Virus record (IMG/VR): IMGVR_UViG_3300027782_000159
Span: 1-40,069 of that record
Strand: one strand, 5' to 3'
Length of the DNA: 40,069 nt
Origin: a virus
Position 1 is the first letter of the stretch, and each line of letters begins with the position of its first letter. Below the pieces are notes generated by a model. That model ran no database searches. It was not told the DNA's origin and was given only the letters and a program-made list of their open reading frames with translations. Of this stretch, positions 4,361 to 38,291 are shown one piece after another. Both the position numbers and the translations under genes were made by a program.

Positions 4361-4810
4361 TTGAGAAGCCCGTTCAACATCATCCTGTCGCTGGTCTGCC
4401 TTTCCATGCTCGTCATGGCGACGAAGAACAAGAACGAGATCAAGCTCACGAAGGCTAGGTCCGAGGGGCGGGCGGAAAAGCCGAGCGCCGAATCGACCTA
4501 TTCCGCGGTCATGGGGAAGGCGAAACTAGAAGGTAGCCGAGTGGTCTTGGTTTTCGGCGCCGGATGGTGCGTATGGTGCCAGAAGCTGGAGTCCGAGACG
4601 CTGACCGCCTTGAGGGTGAAGTCCAAGATGTACGAGATGAAAGTCGTCAAGCTCAAGGTCGACATCGAGAAAAACAAGGACATAGCCATGAGGTACAACG
4701 TTAAGTCGATCCCGGTTCTGGTGCTGGTCGACGGCGACGAGAAGGTGATCGGGAGGCGTGATGGCTACATGAACGTCAAGGACATGCTTTCGTGGCTCAA
4801 CCTCAACTGA
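4361..4810 (+). CDS. Exported or membrane-anchored thioredoxin-like protein
   Basis: 149 residues from a TTG start at 4361, chosen because AGGAG sits 5 nt upstream and overlaps the previous stop. Residues 2-20 (RSPFNIILSLVCLSMLVMA) form a signal peptide or membrane anchor, followed by a charged linker. The thioredoxin fold starts near 58: a beta strand VVLVFGAGW, the redox pair C70-V-W-C73, and a cis-proline in KSIPVLVLVDGD (P118). The W-C-x-x-C site in a DsbD-gamma-like context suggests disulfide reduction or exchange outside the cytoplasm. Phage thioredoxins are usually cytoplasmic, so export is unusual. Its 3' end overlaps the convergent gene by 8 bp. Confidence 0.85.
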   Translation: MRSPFNIILSLVCLSMLVMATKNKNEIKLTKARSEGRAEKPSAESTYSAVMGKAKLEGSRVVLVFGAGWCVWCQKLESETLTALRVKSKMYEMKVVKLKVDIEKNKDIAMRYNVKSIPVLVLVDGDEKVIGRRDGYMNVKDMLSWLNLN

Positions 4811-5498
4811 ACTCGTTCGGGAACGTCTTCCTGAAGAAATCCTTGGCGTTATCGTCGACACCGTTCTCGTACAGCTTGACGTCGAAATTGAGCTTGGAAA
4901 GCATTTCCTCCCTGACCACCTTGGACATGAACGGAGACATCACCACGTAGTACGGCGAGATCTTCCCGAAATTCATCCACCTGTACAGGGTGCCGTCCGA
5001 TTCAGCCTTCACGTATTCGGACATCGCCGGGCTTTCGCCTAGCTCCGCCTTCAGGAACATCTTTGACTTCCTCAGGGCGTCGAGTATCTTTTGGTTCGAG
5101 ACCTTCGACGGCGCGGCGTCCGTCTTCATGTTGGCTAGGGAGTCATACCTCCTCTTCCAGAGTTTCCACCTTCTCCAAGCCTTGTCGCCTATGAGACATC
5201 CGGCGTCGACTGAAGGGTGACCATCGCCGATCTTGATGTTCTTGAGTATGTCTATCTGAGCCCTGATGTAGAGGTGGAACTCGTCGTCCTTCACGATACC
5301 TTTGGTTTCCCTAATGAGCTTGTAGCAGAGCTTGAAAAGGTAACTCTTCCTCGGGTCTCCCCTGCCCATGCCGGCGTTCTTGTAGTCGGGGAAAGCCTTC
5401 CTGCTCTTCTCGATCCAGACGAGACCGACCGTGTAGGCTAAGGATTCCGTCTCGTCCATCTTGTACTTGACTATGACTTTCTGCACTTCCTTGTCCAT
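4803..5498 (-). CDS. Unknown 231-residue protein
   Basis: The start at 5498 (MDKEVQKVIVKYKMDETESL) is fixed by AAGGAG upstream. The protein is basic and mostly helical, with Trp/Arg-rich segments such as KAWRRWKLWKRRY. I considered a gp59-like helicase loader because of size and the helical basic N-terminal half, but could not align diagnostic residues. A 17-bp palindrome lies 13 bp before its start and could control it. It converges on the thioredoxin gene and overlaps it by 8 bp. Confidence 0.7.
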   Translation of the reverse strand: MDKEVQKVIVKYKMDETESLAYTVGLVWIEKSRKAFPDYKNAGMGRGDPRKSYLFKLCYKLIRETKGIVKDDEFHLYIRAQIDILKNIKIGDGHPSVDAGCLIGDKAWRRWKLWKRRYDSLANMKTDAAPSKVSNQKILDALRKSKMFLKAELGESPAMSEYVKAESDGTLYRWMNFGKISPYYVVMSPFMSKVVREEMLSKLNFDVKLYENGVDDNAKDFFRKTFPNEFS

Positions 5499-5527: not shown

Positions 5528-5625
5528 TACTGCCTATATTCTTGGCTACCGATTTCGTTGGTCGGCGAGATTTTTCTCATTATCGAGAAACCCAGCCACT
5601 TTATTTTATAAAAGAAAATTAATCA

Positions 5626-5653
5626 TTGATTTCGTCGGGTTTCATGGTATCTT
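5626..5653 (+). promoter_or_regulatory. Sigma70-like promoter for the structured RNA
   Basis: TTGATT (5626-5631), 16 bp spacer, TATCTT (5648-5653). It lies directly in front of the hairpin-rich, gene-free stretch, so transcription would start near 5660. Confidence 0.5.
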
Positions 5654-5659
5654 AACCTT

Positions 5660-6265
5660 AACTTGTCACAGAAACCTTTGAGTAACGAAGACGGTAGCTT
5701 TCTCTACCACTTTGGATTCGGGAATTGAATGTACCCCAGCCCCGGATCCAACTTCAGAAGAAACCTGAGCAGCCCTAACGGGTAAGTCTTTGTAGTAATT
5801 ATTTTACGAATGGCGCCACGAGAGCCATTGTTATGCTCGGAATGCTAGGTAAGCCTTGGATAGAACAAAAAACGCCGACATCCGTTCCTGCAGACAAGGG
5901 AATGGACTAGCCAAGAGTTAGGACGCATAAACTGGTACTGTTGTTTTCGGTTTCAGGGTCGTCAACCCAAAGTGACGTTCCGTTTCGCGTTGTTTGGTCC
6001 GACAAGTGAAAGAACAGATGTTTTTGACTTGAAGGCAAGACAATGACGACGCGTATCGTCTCGTTTGTATTGTCGATCCAACTTAGCGGTATTTTGGGTT
6101 GAATGGTGTGGGATATGTTTAAACACAGAGAATCCCATTCAATTTAGATGTGGAAACAAGAGGATTCAAAGGGAATCCATATGTCTTTACACTGAACAAG
6201 ATACAACACTAAGTCGGCACTCGTTTTATGGTAATTAAAGACAAACTTGGTAGGAATATACCAAT
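5660..6265 (+). ncRNA. Candidate large structured non-coding RNA (class unknown; GOLLD/ROOL-like in size and setting)
   Basis: The 816 bp between 5499 and 6314 hold no convincing gene on either strand and have lower GC than the neighbours. From about 5690 there is a dense series of perfect or GU-containing stems: 5693-5697/5704-5708; 5714-5722/5741-5749 (9 bp); 5773-5775/5780-5782 with a UAAC tetraloop of the UMAC type; 5809-5814/5824-5829; 5881-5888/5899-5906 (8 bp); 5956-5959/5965-5968; 6028-6031/6036-6039; 6039-6044/6069-6074 enclosing 6048-6051/6057-6060; 6099-6106/6135-6142; 6162-6167/6173-6178; and TTGGTA/TACCAA near 6247-6265. Purine-rich loops and the promoter favour the plus strand. 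GOLLD and ROOL RNAs are long ornate phage RNAs of about 600-800 nt; membership is not shown here. The 3' end is uncertain; 5528-5625 and 6266-6314 hold nothing else I can identify. Confidence 0.55.
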
Positions 6266-6314
6266 TTGGCTGAATAGTGTTTGTTTTGCGACGATTATCG
6301 TGTATCATCCCATC

Positions 6315-7649
6315 ATGTTGCTAACAAACGAAACACAGATGATCTCGGCTCTAGCCGAACTTGACTCCGAAGGGGTCGTTTACTTCTCCTGCAGCGACGA
6401 AATACTCGACTTCACGGACAAGTCGAGGCATGGAGCCTATACGGTGGCTTTGTCGTCGAAAAAGGGCGTATACGAGTTCCTGGTGCATGACGAGTGGGCT
6501 GTCAGGTTGTTCGTGAAGGCTGCGTCGATGACCGTCTTCACCAAGGGCAAGAAGGTCATAGCCTGGGACTGGAAGAATTTCTGCAGCTTCTGCCTCGGGA
6601 GGCACGGAGTCAAGGTGGTCGTCGAATGCTCCCTGATCGACCTGAAGATAATCGAGCATTACGTCGGGTTCAGGAACGAAAAGCCGAAAACGGTCGGCGA
6701 GTGCACGAGGCGTCTCAGGTCGGTCGTCGAGTCCGGGTGCTGGGACAAGCTCCAGGTCGTGTACAAGGGCGTCTACCTTCCCCTCGCCTGCGAGGTCCTC
6801 CCGTGCATGGAGACGGTAGGCATCCTCGACAGGGAGAAGCTCCATGCCCACTACGACATAGCCGGTCAGGAGAACGGGAGGCTGCTCTGCTTCAACGCGT
6901 ACTCCAGGGGCTATGTGCCGCATGTCATCACGCAGGAGCAGAAGGGATGCCTCAAGCCGATAGCCCTGGACCAGCTGTTCGTGTACCTCGACTACAGGAG
7001 CATGGAGGTCAGGGTTCTTGAGTGGCTCACGAAGGACACGGAACTCACGAAGGCTTGCGAGTCGCCGGACATATACAAGGCGTTGTACGAGACGGTCACG
7101 AAGAACGCCTGCGACTCGCCCGAGAAAAGGTCGTTCTGCAAGTCGTTTTTCCTTCCCGTGTTCTACGGCATGTCGCCGTCCACCCTTTCGGAGAGGCTTG
7201 GCGTGTCGCAGTCCACGTCCGAGTCCATAGTGGACAGGGTCAGGAAGATATTCCCGACTGCTTACGGTTGGGTCGAGAGGCAACAGGCGGAAGCCAAGGA
7301 CGCCGGCGTGTCCACGGACATCTTCGGCAGGAGGAGGGTTCTGGAGGACAAGCACTACAGGGCGAGGAACTTCGCGGTCCAGTCGCCCGCGGCTCTGTTC
7401 TGCCTGAAAAAGCTCGTACATCTCCACGAGTCATTGAAGGGCAAGGGTTCCGTCGCTTATAATGTGCATGACGGATACATGATCTATTCCAGCAGGGAGA
7501 ATGTAAGGGACGTGGTTCTGGCGGCGATGTCGGCTCTCCGTTCGGAGGACTCGGCGTTCCCGTCGCTGAGGATGGAGGTCTCCTGCTCCGTGGGCAGGCG
7601 GCTGACGGAGATGAGAGAGTTGAACGTCGCAAAAAAAGGAACAGCATGA
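6315..7649 (+). CDS. polA: Family A DNA polymerase (Leu762 type, degenerate exonuclease region)
   Basis: 444 residues from the ATG at 6315; the in-frame ATG at 6228 lies in hairpin-forming sequence and neither start has a clear ribosome site. Polymerase motifs: motif A YLDYRSMEVRVLEW (catalytic Asp near 226), motif B RSFCKSFFLPVFYGMS (272-287) and motif C NVHDGYMIY (near 385). Aligned on YGMS, the residue matching E. coli Phe762 is Leu, and motif C has HDG instead of HDE. The N-terminal 180 residues lie where the 3'-5' exonuclease should be but lack the D-x-E motif, so proofreading may be absent or separate. Its stop overlaps the next start by 4 bp. Likely the replicative or recombination-coupled polymerase beside the helicase genes. 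Confidence 0.88.
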   Translation: MLLTNETQMISALAELDSEGVVYFSCSDEILDFTDKSRHGAYTVALSSKKGVYEFLVHDEWAVRLFVKAASMTVFTKGKKVIAWDWKNFCSFCLGRHGVKVVVECSLIDLKIIEHYVGFRNEKPKTVGECTRRLRSVVESGCWDKLQVVYKGVYLPLACEVLPCMETVGILDREKLHAHYDIAGQENGRLLCFNAYSRGYVPHVITQEQKGCLKPIALDQLFVYLDYRSMEVRVLEWLTKDTELTKACESPDIYKALYETVTKNACDSPEKRSFCKSFFLPVFYGMSPSTLSERLGVSQSTSESIVDRVRKIFPTAYGWVERQQAEAKDAGVSTDIFGRRRVLEDKHYRARNFAVQSPAALFCLKKLVHLHESLKGKGSVAYNVHDGYMIYSSRENVRDVVLAAMSALRSEDSAFPSLRMEVSCSVGRRLTEMRELNVAKKGTA

Positions 7650-8209
7650 AAAGCATATGTCAGTCCTTCCCGATAACGCACACGGAGTTCGAGGAGTTGA
7701 ACAAGAGTTTCGGGAAGCTTTGCTTCTACGCAGCCCACCAGCTCCAGAAGAAGAATTCCAAGAACAACTACACCGACGACTTCGACGACATAAACCAGGA
7801 GCTCCAGCTCTCGATAGTCCGCGCCGGGTCGTACTACAAGAGGCAGATATACATAGAGAGGTGTTTCGAGGTCGTCTACGAGTACAATTCCGACCCTTTC
7901 CTGCTGGAGATCGTAAACAAGCTACGGGACCTTTGGACCAACCGCACGAGGCACGGAGCCAACCGCCAGAAATTCGGGGGCAGGCAGGAGGTCATGCTCG
8001 AGAGGATGGTCATCAGGACCGTGCCCAGGGGCAAGAGACCGGACAAGATGTCGCAGCTCACCATCGACACCAAGTTCTCGACGTATTGCAAGGCTATAGT
8101 CTGGAACGGGCAGAAGAGCATGGGGAAGAAGATAACCAGGGAGAAGTCGATAAGGAGCGGGCAGGTATCGCTCTCGGAATTTGACTATTTGGGCTCAAGC
8201 GAATTATAA
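7646..8209 (+). CDS. Sigma-factor-like protein (possible gp55 equivalent)
   Basis: 187 residues, start overlapping the polA stop by 4 bp. Two stretches resemble sigma70 region 2: FDDINQELQLSIVRAG (about 46-61) and KFSTYCKAIVWNGQKSMGKK (about 143-162, compare FSTYAxxxI-type core sequence). Unlike ordinary sigma factors, about 80 residues rich in Arg/Lys lie between them. T4 gp55 is a similarly reduced sigma (185 residues) that recognises late promoters. If this is its counterpart, the TTATAA-core motifs in this window are natural targets. A role as another DNA-binding or replication protein cannot be excluded. Confidence 0.5.
   Translation: MKSICQSFPITHTEFEELNKSFGKLCFYAAHQLQKKNSKNNYTDDFDDINQELQLSIVRAGSYYKRQIYIERCFEVVYEYNSDPFLLEIVNKLRDLWTNRTRHGANRQKFGGRQEVMLERMVIRTVPRGKRPDKMSQLTIDTKFSTYCKAIVWNGQKSMGKKITREKSIRSGQVSLSEFDYLGSSEL
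8204..8209 (+). promoter_or_regulatory. TTATAA-core promoter candidate
   Basis: TTATAA at the very end of the sigma-like gene (GAATTATAATG), 6 bp before the 5' arm of the leader hairpin that precedes the glycosyltransferase. A transcript from here would begin almost exactly with that stem. Confidence 0.4.
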
Positions 8210-29923: not shown

Positions 29924-31303
29924 ATGAACATGATTGACATATTGGAGAAGATAAGGAACAGCGACTTGAGGATAGGAGTCGTCGGCGACGCCATGCTCGA
30001 CGAGTACTTCGACGTCAAGGTGAAGAAGATATCTCCGGAGTTCCCCATCCCGGTCATGCACAGCGACGAGGCTGAGCCAAGCCTTGTTCTCCCCGGCGGA
30101 GCCGCGAATGTCGCGTTCCAGCTAGCCAACTTCAACAAGAAAACATTTTTGTGTTCGCTCCTGGATGGGCACGCCGAGGCTGTCCTTTCGAGGCACGGGA
30201 TAGACACCTCGTTGTCGGTCAGGATAGACCCGTGCCACGTGCCGAGGAAAAGGAGGTTCTACAGCGACGGATTCCCGACATACAGGTGGGACGTGGAGAG
30301 ACCTCTGTACGGTTCGGAGAAAGAAGATCTGAGGTCATACTGCGCCGAACTGAAGAGGAAGATAGACCAGAGCGATTTCGACGTGCTGATATTCTCCGAC
30401 TACGACAAGGGAGTGTTCTTCGACGACATGGTGTCCGAACTCTCAAGGACCCACCGATGCGCGATACGCATGGTCGATCCCAAGAACGACATCCTCAAGT
30501 GGAAGGGATGCACCCTCATAAAGCCGAACCTTTCGGAAGCCAAGTCCATAACCGGCAAGTCAAAAGTCGTCGACCAGATAGAGGAGATAATGAATATGAC
30601 CTCAGCCGGCAGCGTGGTCGTAACTAGGGGGGGCGACGGTTTTTCCGGGTATGACGGAAGCCATTTCGAATACGACGTTCGCGAAAGCTCTGACAAGGTG
30701 AACAGCGTCATAGGCGCCGGGGACTGCTTCATAGCGTTCTGCGGCTTGTGCCTAGGGAACGGGGTCGACCTTCGCAGGGCTTCCGAGTTCTCCTTCAACA
30801 TGGGCGCGATCTATGTCACCGACAAGCACAACAAGCCCCTTGACCACCAGAGGATAACGACGTTCATCGACAAGCCCAGGTCGAAGATCGTTTCCCCGGA
30901 GACCCTGGCGAAGCGCGACTTCACCTTGGTCATGACGAACGGTTGCTTCGACCTGCTGCATGCCGGTCACCTCAACAGCCTGAACTTCGCGAAGAGGCAT
31001 GGGGAGAAACTGGTTGTCGCAGTCAATGGCGACGGTTCCGTCTCCAGGCTCAAGCCCGGGAGACCGATCAACAAGCTGTCGGACAGGATGTCCATGCTTT
31101 CCAACCTGGAGTGCGTGGACTATGTCGTCAGCTTCGACGAGGACACTCCCCTTGAGGTGATAAGGAAGATAGTTCCGGATGTGCTAGTGAAGGGGTTCGA
31201 CTACGACGGCAAGGAGGTAGTCGGCTCTGATATCGTCAAGTCGGTGGTTCTCGCGCCGATGCTGGACGGGTTCTCCACCACCGGGATGCTCGGAAGGATC
31301 TAG
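29924..31303 (+). CDS. hldE: HldE-like heptose-phosphate kinase/nucleotidyltransferase
   Basis: 459 residues, close to bacterial HldE (about 475). Residues 1-315 are a PfkB/ribokinase domain: LPGGAANVAFQLANF (57-70) and the GAGD catalytic loop (264-267). Residues 335-459 are a cytidylyltransferase-type domain: TNGCFDLLHAGHL with HxGH (346-349), and KGFDYDGKEVVGSDIV near the end. The enzyme makes ADP-heptose for LPS core. A phage copy could supply heptose for surface glycans or alter ADP-heptose signalling. The two-ATG start lacks a ribosome site. Confidence 0.92.
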   Translation: MNMIDILEKIRNSDLRIGVVGDAMLDEYFDVKVKKISPEFPIPVMHSDEAEPSLVLPGGAANVAFQLANFNKKTFLCSLLDGHAEAVLSRHGIDTSLSVRIDPCHVPRKRRFYSDGFPTYRWDVERPLYGSEKEDLRSYCAELKRKIDQSDFDVLIFSDYDKGVFFDDMVSELSRTHRCAIRMVDPKNDILKWKGCTLIKPNLSEAKSITGKSKVVDQIEEIMNMTSAGSVVVTRGGDGFSGYDGSHFEYDVRESSDKVNSVIGAGDCFIAFCGLCLGNGVDLRRASEFSFNMGAIYVTDKHNKPLDHQRITTFIDKPRSKIVSPETLAKRDFTLVMTNGCFDLLHAGHLNSLNFAKRHGEKLVVAVNGDGSVSRLKPGRPINKLSDRMSMLSNLECVDYVVSFDEDTPLEVIRKIVPDVLVKGFDYDGKEVVGSDIVKSVVLAPMLDGFSTTGMLGRI

Positions 31304-33394: not shown

Positions 33395-35467
33395 ATGAGC
33401 GGACTGAAAAAATTCATAGGCAACTTCAACCAGAGCAAGTTCAAGACACTAAACAGCGAGATGTCGTTCTCCGAGTACGTAGATCTCTGCTACCAGACCC
33501 CGAGGCTCATAAGGAACTCCTGGCAGATGATATACGACATGATCATCGAGAAGGGTCACGGGGTCACCGAGGAATACCGGAAGACCTACAAGCACTACAA
33601 CTTCTTCGACAACCCAGAATGCCCGATCATCGGTCTGACCCCGACGAAGGACGCCCTCGTCAAGTTCATCAAGGGAGCAGCCGGCAGTTTCGGCGCAGAG
33701 AAGAGAATACTCCTGCTCCACGGACCCGTGGGAAGTTCCAAGTCGACCATATGCCGATTGTTCAAGAGGGAGATGGAGACATACTCCACCACCGAATCCG
33801 GAGCCTGGTATTCGTTCAAGTGGGTCGACCTCCCCACCGGTCAGGACGGGATATACATCAAGGACGAGGACGAGTGCCCCATGCACGAGCAGCCGCTGAA
33901 GCTCCTGCCCCCGGAAGTCCGGAATCCGATCGTCGCGGACCTAAACCGCATACTGCTGGAATCCGTCTCCCCCGAGGAGAGGACCGACATGTACACGCTC
34001 AAGTGCGAGGGCGACCTCGACCCGAGATGCAACCTGTTCATGAACGAGCTCCTGAAGAGATATGACGGCGACCTGGAGAAGATACTTGAGAAGCACATCA
34101 GGGTCGTCCGAAAGGTGTACAGCGAGTCGTCGAGATGCGGCATCGCGACCTTCCAGCCGAAGGACGAGAAGAACCAGGACAGCACCGAACTCACCGGCGA
34201 CATAAATTTCAGCAAGATCAGCATGTTCGGCGCGGACTCGGACCCGAGGAGCTTCAACTTCGACGGGGAGTTCTGCGTGGGGAACCGCGGCATCATAGAG
34301 TTCATAGAGGCTCTCAAGCTGGACCAGGCGTTCCTCTACGACCTGCTCGGCGCGAGCCAGGAGCAGAGCATCAAGCCGAAGAAGTTCAGCCAGGTGTCCA
34401 TAGACGAAGCCATATTCTGCCATACAAACACCCCCGAGTACGAGAAGCTGAGGAGCAACCAGTACATGGAGGCTCTCAGGGACCGAACCGTCAAGATAGA
34501 TGTGCCGTACACGATCAGGTGGTCAGAGGAACTGAAGATACTGGAGAAGGACTACGGGTCGAGCAAGGTGAGGCAGCACATAGCCCCGCACACGCTCGAG
34601 GTCGCGGCTCTCTGGTCGGTCCTGACCAGACTCCACGACGACAAGGACGGCAAGCTGAGCCTCGTAGAGAAGGCTGAACTCTATGACGGCAAGCTGCTCC
34701 CGGGATGGACCGACGAGCAGGTCAAGGAACTCAAGGACAGGTACGCCGACGAGGGAATGTCCCGCGGCATATCGGTTCGTTACGTGCAGGACAAGCTCTC
34801 CAACTGCCTCGCCAACAACCACGAGTACGTCAACATGTTCATGGTCCTCAACGAACTGCGAGAGGGTCTGGAGGGGAGTTCGCTCCTCAACAACAAGGAT
34901 GACGTTGGTCGGTACATCACATGCATAGACTTGGTGGTCAAGAAGCTGACCGACATATTGAAAGCCGAAGTCCAGAAAGCCCTGGTCGGGGACGAGGACG
35001 CGGTGATCCGACTTTGCGGCAACTACATCGACAACATCATGGCTTACATCAACAAGTCGAAGATCAAGGACCCCATCACGGGGCAGGACCGAAAGCCCGA
35101 CGAGAGGCTCATGCGCTCCGTCGAGTCCAAGATAGACATCCCCGAGCCGGGCGCGGACGACTTCAGGAGGCAGATAGCGGCATTCATCGGCGACCTCGCG
35201 GTAAAGCAGAAGCAGTTCCGCTGGGATTCCAACCCGAAGCTCAGGAACGCCTTGGAGGCGAAGCTCTTCGAGGACGTCAAGGACACGATCAAGCTATCGG
35301 CGCTCAACGTCAGCGGGGCTACCGTGGTCGACAAGGACATCCAGGAGAAGATCGACGCGATAAAGACCAGGCTGATCAAGCAGTACGGTTACAACGAGCG
35401 GTCCGCCACCGACGTACTCGATTTCGTCGGAAGCATCTTCGCCCGCGGCGACCTCGCGGAAGACTAA
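33395..35467 (+). CDS. prkA: PrkA-family AAA/serine-kinase protein
   Basis: 690 residues, near bacterial PrkA/YeaG (about 640). The AAA module has Walker A GPVGSSKST (110-118), where usual GPVGGGKS is slightly changed, and a DEAIFCHTNTPEYEK sensor region (about 347-361) typical of the family. The second half carries the PrkA C-terminal domain with SRGISVRYVQDKLSN. In bacteria PrkA acts with YeaH and SpoVR in starvation and stress responses; it was described as a kinase and more recently as an AAA protease-like protein. Operon promoter at 33348; yeaH starts 43 bp downstream. Confidence 0.92.
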   Translation: MSGLKKFIGNFNQSKFKTLNSEMSFSEYVDLCYQTPRLIRNSWQMIYDMIIEKGHGVTEEYRKTYKHYNFFDNPECPIIGLTPTKDALVKFIKGAAGSFGAEKRILLLHGPVGSSKSTICRLFKREMETYSTTESGAWYSFKWVDLPTGQDGIYIKDEDECPMHEQPLKLLPPEVRNPIVADLNRILLESVSPEERTDMYTLKCEGDLDPRCNLFMNELLKRYDGDLEKILEKHIRVVRKVYSESSRCGIATFQPKDEKNQDSTELTGDINFSKISMFGADSDPRSFNFDGEFCVGNRGIIEFIEALKLDQAFLYDLLGASQEQSIKPKKFSQVSIDEAIFCHTNTPEYEKLRSNQYMEALRDRTVKIDVPYTIRWSEELKILEKDYGSSKVRQHIAPHTLEVAALWSVLTRLHDDKDGKLSLVEKAELYDGKLLPGWTDEQVKELKDRYADEGMSRGISVRYVQDKLSNCLANNHEYVNMFMVLNELREGLEGSSLLNNKDDVGRYITCIDLVVKKLTDILKAEVQKALVGDEDAVIRLCGNYIDNIMAYINKSKIKDPITGQDRKPDERLMRSVESKIDIPEPGADDFRRQIAAFIGDLAVKQKQFRWDSNPKLRNALEAKLFEDVKDTIKLSALNVSGATVVDKDIQEKIDAIKTRLIKQYGYNERSATDVLDFVGSIFARGDLAED

Positions 35468-35509
35468 CGGAAAGCTGTAAGCCGAACAAAAAAAGGAACG
35501 AGGTGATTT

Positions 35510-36724
35510 GTGCCACGACGCATAGAAGAGGACCATAAGGACTTTATAGATGTCGTCTCGGGGAGACTCAGGAAAGCCCTGAAGAAATTCATAAAGTCAG
35601 GCAAGATAGTAAGGTCCCGCGGGAAGCGCGGGAAGATATCAATCACCATCCCGAAGATAGACATACCCCAGATACTTTATGGTGACAACGGCACGGGAAC
35701 CGGTCGCGGTCAGGGCAAGGACGGCGACGTGATAGACAAGGGCAAGAAGGACAAGGGCAAGGGCAACGGCGCCGGGCAGGACGAGGGCGAGGGCATAACG
35801 GTCAGCCTCGACCTCGACGACGTCCTCAAGTTCATGCAGTCCGAGCTGGAACTCCCGAACCTCAAGCCCAAGGTAAACGACACTTTCGACGACATCAAGA
35901 TCAAGTACAACAACATATCGATGGTCGGTCCGGAATCCCTGCGCAACAACAAGAGGACTTTCCTCGAGGCTCTCAAGAGGCAGTCCGCCGACGGCAGCAT
36001 CGACAAGCTCGAGATGGTCCCGGGCATCAAGGTCCCGATCAAGATGGTCAAGCCGATCAAGAGGGACAAGCGCTACAGGCAGTACAGGGAGATCAAGATA
36101 CCTTCCAGCAACGCCCTCATCGTCTACGCCAGGGACGGTTCCGGGTCGATGGACCAGATGAAGTGCGAGATAGTCTCCGACATGGCTTGGTGGATAGACG
36201 TCTGGATCAGGAAGTTCTACAAGCGCGTCGAGAGGCTCTTCGTCTGGCACGACTCCATAGCGATGGAGGTGGACGAGGAGAAGTTCTACAACTACAGGTT
36301 CGGCGGCGGCACGACCTGCTCTTCCGCCCTCAAGTTCATAGCGAAACAGTTCGAGAACCGGTACAACCCGCACAAGTGGAACATATATGTCTTCTACTTC
36401 ACGGACGGCGACAACTGGAGCGAAGACAACAAGGTGTTCATCGACACGCTAAGGGAGTCGTTCCCGGAGAATCTCGTCAACATGGTCGGCATAACCCAGA
36501 TACTGCCGTGGAACTACACGAACAGCGTCAAGCACGTGGTCGACCAGGCTGTGCAGAGCGGCGACGTCGACAAGAGGAACGTCAGGACCGCGGAGATAGG
36601 CTCCAACGGCTCGGATTTCACGGAGGAGATGAGGAACGAGCAGATAATGGAGGCGATAAAGACGCTGATGGGTTCTGACAGAAATAAAATAAAGTTTCCC
36701 AAGGAGCTAGAGGATGGCGAGTAA
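35510..36724 (+). CDS. yeaH: YeaH/DUF444 protein with von Willebrand A domain
   Basis: 404 residues from a GTG start with ACGAGGTG upstream. A basic N-terminal segment (RSRGKRGKISITIPKI) is followed by a Gly/Lys linker (60-92) and a vWA domain with the MIDAS metal site DGSGSM (209-214) in NALIVYARDGSGSMDQMK; the FGGGTTCSSALKF and YFTDGDNW loops complete it. The usual partner of PrkA and SpoVR. The start of spoVR lies inside its last codons (11 bp overlap). Confidence 0.92.
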   Translation: MPRRIEEDHKDFIDVVSGRLRKALKKFIKSGKIVRSRGKRGKISITIPKIDIPQILYGDNGTGTGRGQGKDGDVIDKGKKDKGKGNGAGQDEGEGITVSLDLDDVLKFMQSELELPNLKPKVNDTFDDIKIKYNNISMVGPESLRNNKRTFLEALKRQSADGSIDKLEMVPGIKVPIKMVKPIKRDKRYRQYREIKIPSSNALIVYARDGSGSMDQMKCEIVSDMAWWIDVWIRKFYKRVERLFVWHDSIAMEVDEEKFYNYRFGGGTTCSSALKFIAKQFENRYNPHKWNIYVFYFTDGDNWSEDNKVFIDTLRESFPENLVNMVGITQILPWNYTNSVKHVVDQAVQSGDVDKRNVRTAEIGSNGSDFTEEMRNEQIMEAIKTLMGSDRNKIKFPKELEDGE

Positions 36725-38291
36725 GTTTTTCCACGGATCTTCGCTTCTCATAGGCAACAACACCATACCGGGCGTTCAGCTCCCGAAGGATCTGCGGGAT
36801 TTCGCGCAGAAGATACTGTACGCGTGCAGGGACTGGGGTCTGGACTTCTATCCCACGGTCGTCCAGCTTCTGACCTACGACGAGATATCCGAGGTCGCCG
36901 CGTACGGAGGCTTCCCTGTACGTTACCCCCACTGGTCTTTCGGGATGCAGTACGAGGAACTCCAGAGGGGATATGAATTCGGTGCGCACAAAATATACGA
37001 AATGGTTATCAATGCCTCGCCCTGCTACATCTATTGCCTCGACAGCAACACGCTGCTGGACCACCTGACCGTCATAGCCCACGCCACCGGTCACAACGAC
37101 TTCTTCAAGAACAACATACACTTCTCGGCGACCGACACCAACATGCTCAACAACATGGCGAACCACGCCAGCCGCATAAAGAAGTACATGACGCGTTGGG
37201 GCAAGGAGAGGGTCACGGAGTTCCTCGACTACCTCCTCAGGATAGACACGCTCATAGACGGCGCGTCAGCCTGGCACCAGAAGGTCATCAAGGACCGCAA
37301 CATAGCCGACAAGAGGGACTACAGGGTCCCGGTCAGGCTGAAAGTCGACAGCGACAGGTTCTACATGGACTCCTACATAAACACCAAGGACTTCAAGGTC
37401 CGCGAGGACGAGAAAGCCAAGGACAAGGACCTGGCTGACGAGCTTGGGTTCTTCATCGAGCCGGTCAAGGACATATTCGGGTTCCTCAGGGACAACGCGC
37501 CGCTCAAGCCGTGGCAGCAGGACATCATGTCCATGATCTACGAGGAGTCGATGTATTTCTACCCGCAGAGGCAGACCAAGGTATTAAACGAGGGCTGGGC
37601 TTCACTCACGGACCATGTCATCATGGCTGAGCAGGGCTACGTTTCCCTCGGTCAGAAGACGCACGACTCCGGCATAATCGATTACGCCATACACAAGATG
37701 GGGGTGCTCGGCGGCAAGTATTCCACGAACCCCTACAAGCTTGGCTTCAACCTCCTCATGGACATAAAGAAGAGGTGGGACAAGGGGCAGTTCGGCATGG
37801 AGTGGGACAGGTGCACCAACTCCAGCACGAAGGAGAAGTGGGATACCAAGGCTATGCTCGGCAAGGAGAAGATTTTCGAGGTGAGGAAATATTACGACGA
37901 CCTCACCCTGATCCACGAGTTCTTCACCGACGACTTCTGCCGCGAGCAGGAGTATTTCGAGTACAAGAAGTACCCGAACGGCGAGACCGTCCTCGAGAGC
38001 CACGACCACAAGAAGATAAAGAGGCATCTCATGGCTCGCCACGTCAACGGCGGGCTTCCCGACATAAGGCTGGCTGAGCCAAACTACAAGGGCAAGGGAT
38101 ACCTCATGCTCGAGCACCACCACGACGGGAGACCGCTGTACGACCCCTACCTCCGCGACGTCATGGTGGGTCTGAGGTTCATATGGCAGAACGACGTGTA
38201 CCTGTCGACCAAGGGGCACGACGGGAGCGACGTGGTGTACGAGTGTTTCGACTCGGACCCAGCCAACGTCAAGGTCAAGGGCAAGAAGTAA
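36714..38291 (+). CDS. spoVR: SpoVR-family protein
   Basis: 525 residues, typical length. The family hallmark HATGHNDFFKNN (123-134) follows YCLDSNTLLDHLTVIA; another conserved block is LNEGWASLTDHVIM (about 287-300), a putative metal or active-site region. SpoVR/YcgB partners PrkA and YeaH in proteobacteria and is needed for spore cortex in Bacillus; its biochemical activity is unsettled. GGAG and AGAGG precede the ATG within yeaH. It completes the three-gene operon. Confidence 0.94.
   Translation: MASKFFHGSSLLIGNNTIPGVQLPKDLRDFAQKILYACRDWGLDFYPTVVQLLTYDEISEVAAYGGFPVRYPHWSFGMQYEELQRGYEFGAHKIYEMVINASPCYIYCLDSNTLLDHLTVIAHATGHNDFFKNNIHFSATDTNMLNNMANHASRIKKYMTRWGKERVTEFLDYLLRIDTLIDGASAWHQKVIKDRNIADKRDYRVPVRLKVDSDRFYMDSYINTKDFKVREDEKAKDKDLADELGFFIEPVKDIFGFLRDNAPLKPWQQDIMSMIYEESMYFYPQRQTKVLNEGWASLTDHVIMAEQGYVSLGQKTHDSGIIDYAIHKMGVLGGKYSTNPYKLGFNLLMDIKKRWDKGQFGMEWDRCTNSSTKEKWDTKAMLGKEKIFEVRKYYDDLTLIHEFFTDDFCREQEYFEYKKYPNGETVLESHDHKKIKRHLMARHVNGGLPDIRLAEPNYKGKGYLMLEHHHDGRPLYDPYLRDVMVGLRFIWQNDVYLSTKGHDGSDVVYECFDSDPANVKVKGKK

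Follow-up and report, generated by a model that had tools for sequence, protein, structure and literature searches.

A single-copy structured non-coding RNA gene upstream of polA in metagenomic phages

Directly upstream of polA, the phage contig studied here carries a single-copy non-coding RNA gene of roughly 450-600 nt, and the plus strand of this element is under selection for a defined fold. The window, i.e. the whole stretch of DNA that was analysed, comprises 40,069 nt of the IMG/VR record IMGVR_UViG_3300027782_000159. The best supported classification is that of a large structured RNA of phages representing a new class.

A preliminary description of the window had claimed a large hairpin-rich non-coding RNA before polA, in about 800 bp without a convincing gene. 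The listing of open reading frames confirmed the gap: approximately 790-815 bp separate the start of a minus-strand gene for a 231-aa protein (5498 or 5528) from the polA start at 6315, which is the start common to the relatives, and reading frames of at least 60 aa are absent from this gap, except for an in-frame upstream ATG of polA at 6228. The RNA itself is borne out by homology, covariation and folding, and the hairpins that stand out in this region belong to the set of helices that covary. The locus is composed of the following genes:

4803-5498, minus strand: 231-aa protein, divergent neighbour (tblastn synteny across the lineage)
5660-6262, plus strand: structured RNA gene, inferred extent (A1 conservation, folding z-score of -4.5, core model matches)
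6315-7649, plus strand: small family-A DNA polymerase of 444 aa (PF00476, E 1e-24; synteny)
7646-8209, plus strand: 187-aa all-helical protein downstream of polA (52-76% identity across the lineage)

The start of the RNA gene was placed ~7 nt past the -10 element and its end past a conserved A-rich 3' tail. The plus strand of 5661-6268 folds with -187 kcal/mol compared with -157 +/- 6.7 kcal/mol for 100 dinucleotide shuffles (z-score -4.5, 0/100); before trimming of the ends (5590-6320) the z-score was -3.5. The minus strand yielded -1.8; for eight equally long coding segments of the window, values ranged from +0.3 to -2.4. The z-scores of the homologues lie between -2.6 and -7.7 in eight cases and at only -2.0 in L007.

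A search with the polA protein detected 19 IMG/VR contigs, the intact ones of which share a conserved block ahead of polA that persists although these polymerases are only about 50% identical. A DNA pattern derived from this block recovered the same contigs and one new contig. Seven versions, aligned with MAFFT, served to build covariance model R1, and searches with the conserved protein encoded downstream and with aligned polA sequences brought distant relatives to light. R1 matches at the same place in many of these distant polA relatives (E 6e-6 to 3e-24), the RNA being also present in some contigs upstream of a polA with only ~35% identity, and a second model (R2) added L149 and L158. In total, ~50 IMG/VR contigs with a length of up to 381 kb contain the RNA, and every whole record with a match harbors one copy, located upstream of polA. 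About 25 divergent versions of the RNA were collected; all relatives are metagenomic, and DNA similarity to deposited phages was not detected. Four pattern matches in bacterial and archaeal genomes, all judged by eye, were attributed to chance, as were the pattern matches L040-L044, which lie within coding sequence. Within the PrkA gene of the window, a weak R2 match (34867-34981, E 0.014) is probably a chance match.

The structure was assessed by compensatory base changes. In the MAFFT alignment A3, which is not structure-fitted, double changes occur in 19 of 38 pairs, a number reached by 0/500 shuffles, and 91.5% pairing drops to 33-43% when the partner is slid by 1-3 columns. Related phages without compensatory changes had been named beforehand as an argument against an RNA; in alignment A7 of 22 divergent sequences, which was fitted to the model and hence leans towards it, 34 of 37 core pairs changed in a compensatory manner (0/500 shuffles), 94% of the cells pair, and the covariation score is 0.751 as compared with at most 0.112 after sliding, all of which favours an RNA. 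The core consists of the helices P3, P3a (UNNC tetraloop), hp4a, P4b (ACRAG loop), P4, P5 and P5a. These and the other structural elements, all on the plus strand, are located as follows:

5685-5692 (ACGAAGAC) with 5786-5793 (GUCUUUGU), plus strand: helix P2, tentative, from alignments
5693-5708, plus strand: hairpin P2.1 (GGUAG/CUACC), covarying to GGAAG/CUUCC and GAAGG/CCUUC in relatives
5712-5751, plus strand: hairpin P2.2, from the MFE structure, with an equivalent hairpin found by folding relatives
5766-5770 (UGAGC) with 5835-5839 (GCUCG), plus strand: helix P3, compensatory changes in A3 and A7
5773-5782, plus strand: hairpin P3a (CCC-UAAC-GGG) with UNNC tetraloop; 3/3 pairs covary, 100% paired in 22 sequences
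5809-5829, plus strand: hairpin P4b (AAUGGC..GCCAUU); 5/6 pairs covary, 98% paired
5842-5845 with 5925-5928, plus strand: helix P4, enclosing P5 and P5a
about 5855-5863 with 5907-5915, plus strand: helix P5, inside P4
5881-5888 with 5899-5906, plus strand: helix P5a, inside P4
5731-5735 (GUACC, P2.2 loop) with 5934-5938 (GGUAC, just past P4), plus strand: kissing interaction, from covariation
5874-5879 (GCCGAC) with 6213-6218 (GUCGGC), plus strand: long-range (340-nt) pseudoknot, from covariation and 0/20000 permutations
6116-6127, plus strand: hairpin UGU-UUAAAC-ACA with near-invariant loop, in the variable 3' domain
6220-6227, plus strand: conserved 3' element CUCGUUUU, CYCGGU in relatives and kept in most

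Helix P3 encloses P3a, hp4a and P4b, the loop of the latter holding ACGAG (5818-5822). The UAAC loop pointed out earlier is a genuine tetraloop (5776-5779) that caps a conserved stem of 3 bp, with UGAC, UCGC or UAGC in relatives. For P4, P5 and P5a together, 20 of 20 pairs show compensatory changes in A7. The 3-bp stem of the UUAAAC hairpin covaries in most members (GGC/GCC, GGU/ACC, AGC/GCU, AGU/ACU). The surrounding 3' domain varies between members and is enlarged in the window. Within 5940-6115, the window shares with L002 an additional branched segment of ~100 nt that L016, L007 and L020 lack. Two further pairings are plausible but were not established from the alignments of relatives, where they are weakly supported: P2, which displays little covariation and mismatches in some relatives, would tentatively form a pseudoknot with P3, and the 3' element may pair with AAAC (5761-5764) in a short helix P1.

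Long-range contacts add to this architecture. The kissing interaction exists in 13 distinct sequence versions with the middle four pairs being Watson-Crick in 21 of 21 homologues; anchored counts of this type, for the kiss as well as for the pseudoknot, are biased by the picking of strands for fit, which does not apply to the permutation retests. Examples are GAUACC/GGUAUC (L016), AGUAUC/GAUACU (L020), UGCGUU/AACGCA (L107), UAUGCU/AGCAUA (L155) and CGCACU/AGUGCG (L129). In the retest, in which loops were taken from local folding alone and the 22-nt window was fixed by the model end, the mean self run was 5.48 versus 3.68 between species (0/20000 permutations). The pseudoknot joins the core to the 3' end of the RNA and recurs elsewhere as GCUGAC/GUCAGC, GGCUGA/UCAGCC, UGCAGA/UCUGCA, CCCGA/UCGGG and GCCGU/ACGGC. 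In its permutation test the window sequence was mis-anchored by the motif rule and so counted against the hypothesis. The pseudoknot is apparently missing in the branch of L151 and L155.

These features also bear on the question whether the conservation might reside in the DNA, i.e. in an origin, packaging or recombination site with palindromes mimicking RNA stems. The vicinity of replication genes and a gene-orientation border in some contigs would fit such a site, but folding is strand-asymmetric, G-U pairs occur, and compensatory changes connect strands separated by more than 300 nt while unpaired loops are conserved; these are signatures of RNA and render a DNA site highly improbable. Catalytic RNAs, in turn, typically display interlocked long-range pairings as well as unpaired motifs that are near-invariant, and a ribozyme or a guide-like catalytic RNP, self-cleaving or acting with the conserved 231-aa or 187-aa neighbour, was therefore considered. 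It is very unlikely, given that Rfam ribozymes were unmatched at E-values up to 10 in four RNA regions and that clades lacking the RNA retain both proteins.

Comparison with known RNA families was carried out with 4227 Rfam families, including GOLLD, ROOL, OLE, ribozymes, riboswitches, RNase P and tmRNA, none of which matched the window or 21 relative loci at gathering score; for four RNA regions, no credible match appeared at E-values up to 10. Transfer RNA genes are absent from the window and from 12 RNA-bearing loci of 7-20 kb, and a tmRNA identity was ruled out by ARAGORN for the same sequences. Membership in GOLLD or ROOL, with whose models an Rfam search had been proposed, was rejected since neither covariance model matched and the tRNA neighbourhood is absent. 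What is left of the resemblance noted in the preliminary description is an analogy in phage setting, size, pseudoknots and kissing contact, whereas its other suggestion, a new class, gains support from the lack of Rfam matches at gathering score in window and relatives.

According to PMC12286853, GOLLD is a large, ornate non-coding RNA of phages that contains pseudoknots and kissing contacts, ROOL is a large RNA of phages or prophages in which a conserved kissing loop accompanies several pseudoknots, and OLE is likewise ornate, with extensive tertiary contacts. With GOLLD, the element shares the character of a large ornate phage RNA with pseudoknots and kissing contacts; however, GOLLD often exceeds 800 nt and is often found near tRNA genes, whereas the RNA described here has about 450-600 nt, no tRNA neighbours, other helices, a single place upstream of polA, and no Rfam match. 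The likeness to ROOL is one of analogy only: pseudoknots and a covarying kiss are present, but the elements themselves differ in sequence and architecture, no Rfam match exists, and the tRNA islands often close to ROOL are lacking. GOLLD forms an RNA-only nanocage and ROOL a homo-oligomeric RNA cage; for the present RNA, assembly into a large particle would be a further parallel, and its kiss may act within one molecule or between molecules. OLE, with a size of ~600 nt, is encoded chromosomally in Gram-positive extremophiles beside other genes. It is similar in size and in its ornate tertiary contacts and differs in its chromosomal location and in the lack of an Rfam match. The novelty thus lies at the level of the RNA class, with neither a family match nor descent from GOLLD or ROOL being seen, and the working mode may resemble theirs.

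For transcription, promoter-like sites upstream of the RNA and upstream of polA were considered:

5626-5653, plus strand: sigma70-like promoter of the RNA, TTGATT (5626-5631), 16 nt, TATCTT (5648-5653)
6281-6308, plus strand: separate promoter-like site of polA, TTGTTT-16-TATCAT, 6 nt ahead of the ATG

The first of these, already proposed in the preliminary description, matches the consensus in only 8 of 12 positions, is indistinguishable from background by its score in the window and was not listed by an automatic promoter scan of the window; weak by score alone, it is upheld by motif and position in relatives. In many of these an equivalent site lies ~102-125 nt ahead of the core (~110 nt in the window), with a 10/12 match in L016 and a full TTGACA-16/17-TATAAT in L140 and L127, as read from the sequence. 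The polA site recurs 6-7 nt from the start codon in L002, L020, L016, L007, L008, L141 and L142. These sites score near background, and their weight comes from their constant position; constant positions before both the RNA and polA favour an RNA of its own. Transcription from its own promoter at ~5660, ending before the separate polA promoter, is thus a supported prediction, although a clear terminator between RNA and polA was not found in the window. In L008, iteron-like tandem copies of CAGACTAATA (1-220) are located just ahead of the RNA, at the place taken by the promoter in other members; these repeats lie at a contig end, and an assembly effect is possible.

The same region is the ground for an alternative in which the element is a cis-acting polA leader, i.e. 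a very long 5' UTR or a riboswitch-like control of the polymerase operon. Its position upstream of polA is unvarying, and the 3' element keeps a rather uniform distance to polA (about 80-110 nt in most cases), which counts against a stand-alone gene because a cis-acting leader might show the same. Moreover, L129, L133 and L140 possess a Shine-Dalgarno-like stretch ahead of polA, and in these the RNA and polA may be co-transcribed by read-through. Size and tertiary complexity are beyond those of ordinary leaders, however, in the window and in several relatives the polA ATG is preceded, at 6-7 nt, by a promoter-like site, and neither a conserved terminator/anti-terminator nor a switch sequestering the Shine-Dalgarno sequence was seen. 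We regard a leader as unlikely, albeit as the foremost of the alternatives.

The family-A polymerase is always found directly downstream of the RNA. In the window protein, as read by eye, VHDG replaces VHDE in motif C and the exonuclease region is apparently degenerate. The 187-aa protein downstream is more conserved than polA and showed no match to Pfam, PHROGs, PDB or known folds; a role as sigma factor is unsupported by the Pfam, PHROG, PDB sequence and fold searches. Likewise without family or fold match, the 231-aa protein adjoins the polA locus in every clade, irrespective of whether the RNA is present. On a polA tree of 50 rows, the labels RNA, primase and r387 are strongly clustered (3 changes versus 17 in shuffles). 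All 25 of the 25 RNA-bearing rows fall into one half, alongside six rows with a non-coding gap of similar size and no model match, several of which (L147, L154, L196) fold better than shuffles. The RNA tracks the polA tree, which points to vertical inheritance with polA.

In sister clades, the same slot is occupied by an archaeo-eukaryotic primase of ~427 aa (PF22548, best E 2e-8) and in others by a 387-aa gene without known family; LR756511, a phage of 595 kb, is an example of the latter. The slot upstream of polA is thus swapped between lineages, holding the structured RNA, the PF22548 primase or the 387-aa gene (slot examples: L104:3362-4645, L116:3390-4655, L110:659-1951; L070:2838-4001, L112, L114, L115). 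The lineage is thus related to huge metagenomic phages of the type reported in PMC7162821; searching that paper by term revealed no such RNA. In a literature search whose scope left subscription papers and preprints outside, the RNA was not reported, and a prior description is possible.

The replication equipment of the window phage includes, besides the PolA-like enzyme, a DnaB-like helicase, a Pol III alpha-like polymerase, a gp32-like SSB and RecA; the Pol III alpha-like gene runs from 38591 to the contig end. Other genes of the window are PrkA kinase, DUF444 (YeaH-like) and SpoVR in a row (33395-38291), a set known from bacterial stress operons, and a PfkB kinase fused to a cytidylyltransferase-like domain (29924-31303), which resembles the bifunctional HldE of the heptose pathway.

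This equipment and the adjoining polymerase would suit a replication primer or origin RNA comparable to ColE1 RNA II or to the R-loop transcripts of T4 origins. The 3' end of the transcript would hybridise to the template strand, be cut and be extended by the PolA-type enzyme, followed by the Pol III-type polymerase. ColE1 RNA II is a structured replication pre-primer of ~555 nt that acts with DNA polymerase I, and the present RNA is alike in its size, its structure and its PolA-type neighbour; in contrast, ColE1 is a plasmid and not a phage, and its antisense RNA I and origin evidence have no counterpart here. The primase in the slot of a sister clade and the conserved A-rich 3' tail also agree with a primer. 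In two long contigs, the cumulative GC skew changes direction close to the RNA; this is suggestive at best, as the turn coincides with a switch of gene orientation and differs from the global minimum. Conserved origin repeats were not seen, and the RNA-bearing 381-kb contig encodes a DnaG-type primase that shares 49% identity with its counterpart in LR756511, on which ground a replacement of the only primase by the RNA was rejected. A primer function is accordingly rated unlikely, behind the leader. Ranked lower again, and doubtful, is a role as dedicated partner of the family-A mini-polymerase, by priming or by being used by it so that genome replication starts before the Pol III-type enzyme takes over; if true, it would represent an RNA solution in the slot where sister phages carry the archaeo-eukaryotic primase.

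On balance, we consider it fairly probable from the sequence comparisons that the element is a stand-alone gene whose product, a large structured phage RNA, represents a new class. Most likely, this RNA would be made from its own promoter and act as a folded RNA, as a particle or an RNP, in the replication module. The transcript is predicted to fold into a multi-helix core, complemented by the kiss of the P2.2 loop and by the pseudoknot to the 3' end, and would work in trans, alone or with a phage or host protein; the near-invariant loops UNNC, ACRAG and UUAAAC may serve as docking or protein-binding points. A trans-acting folded RNA in the replication module fits best with the fixed fold, the probable own promoter and the fixed neighbour. 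The nearest models for its way of working would be GOLLD and ROOL, although the RNA is a member of neither.

To our knowledge, only a small number of RNA classes exceed about 400 nt and contain several long-range pairings. Most of the large classes that are understood are central ones, such as ribosomal RNA, RNase P, group I and II introns and tmRNA, and GOLLD, ROOL and OLE are still puzzles. For the RNA presented here, ~25 divergent versions and a covariance model are available, the neighbour gene is fixed, and the predicted tertiary contacts lend themselves to disruption and rescue, which makes it ready for structural and functional work. Vertical inheritance with polA, together with the primase or other gene in the slot of the sister clades, makes a link to phage replication directly testable.
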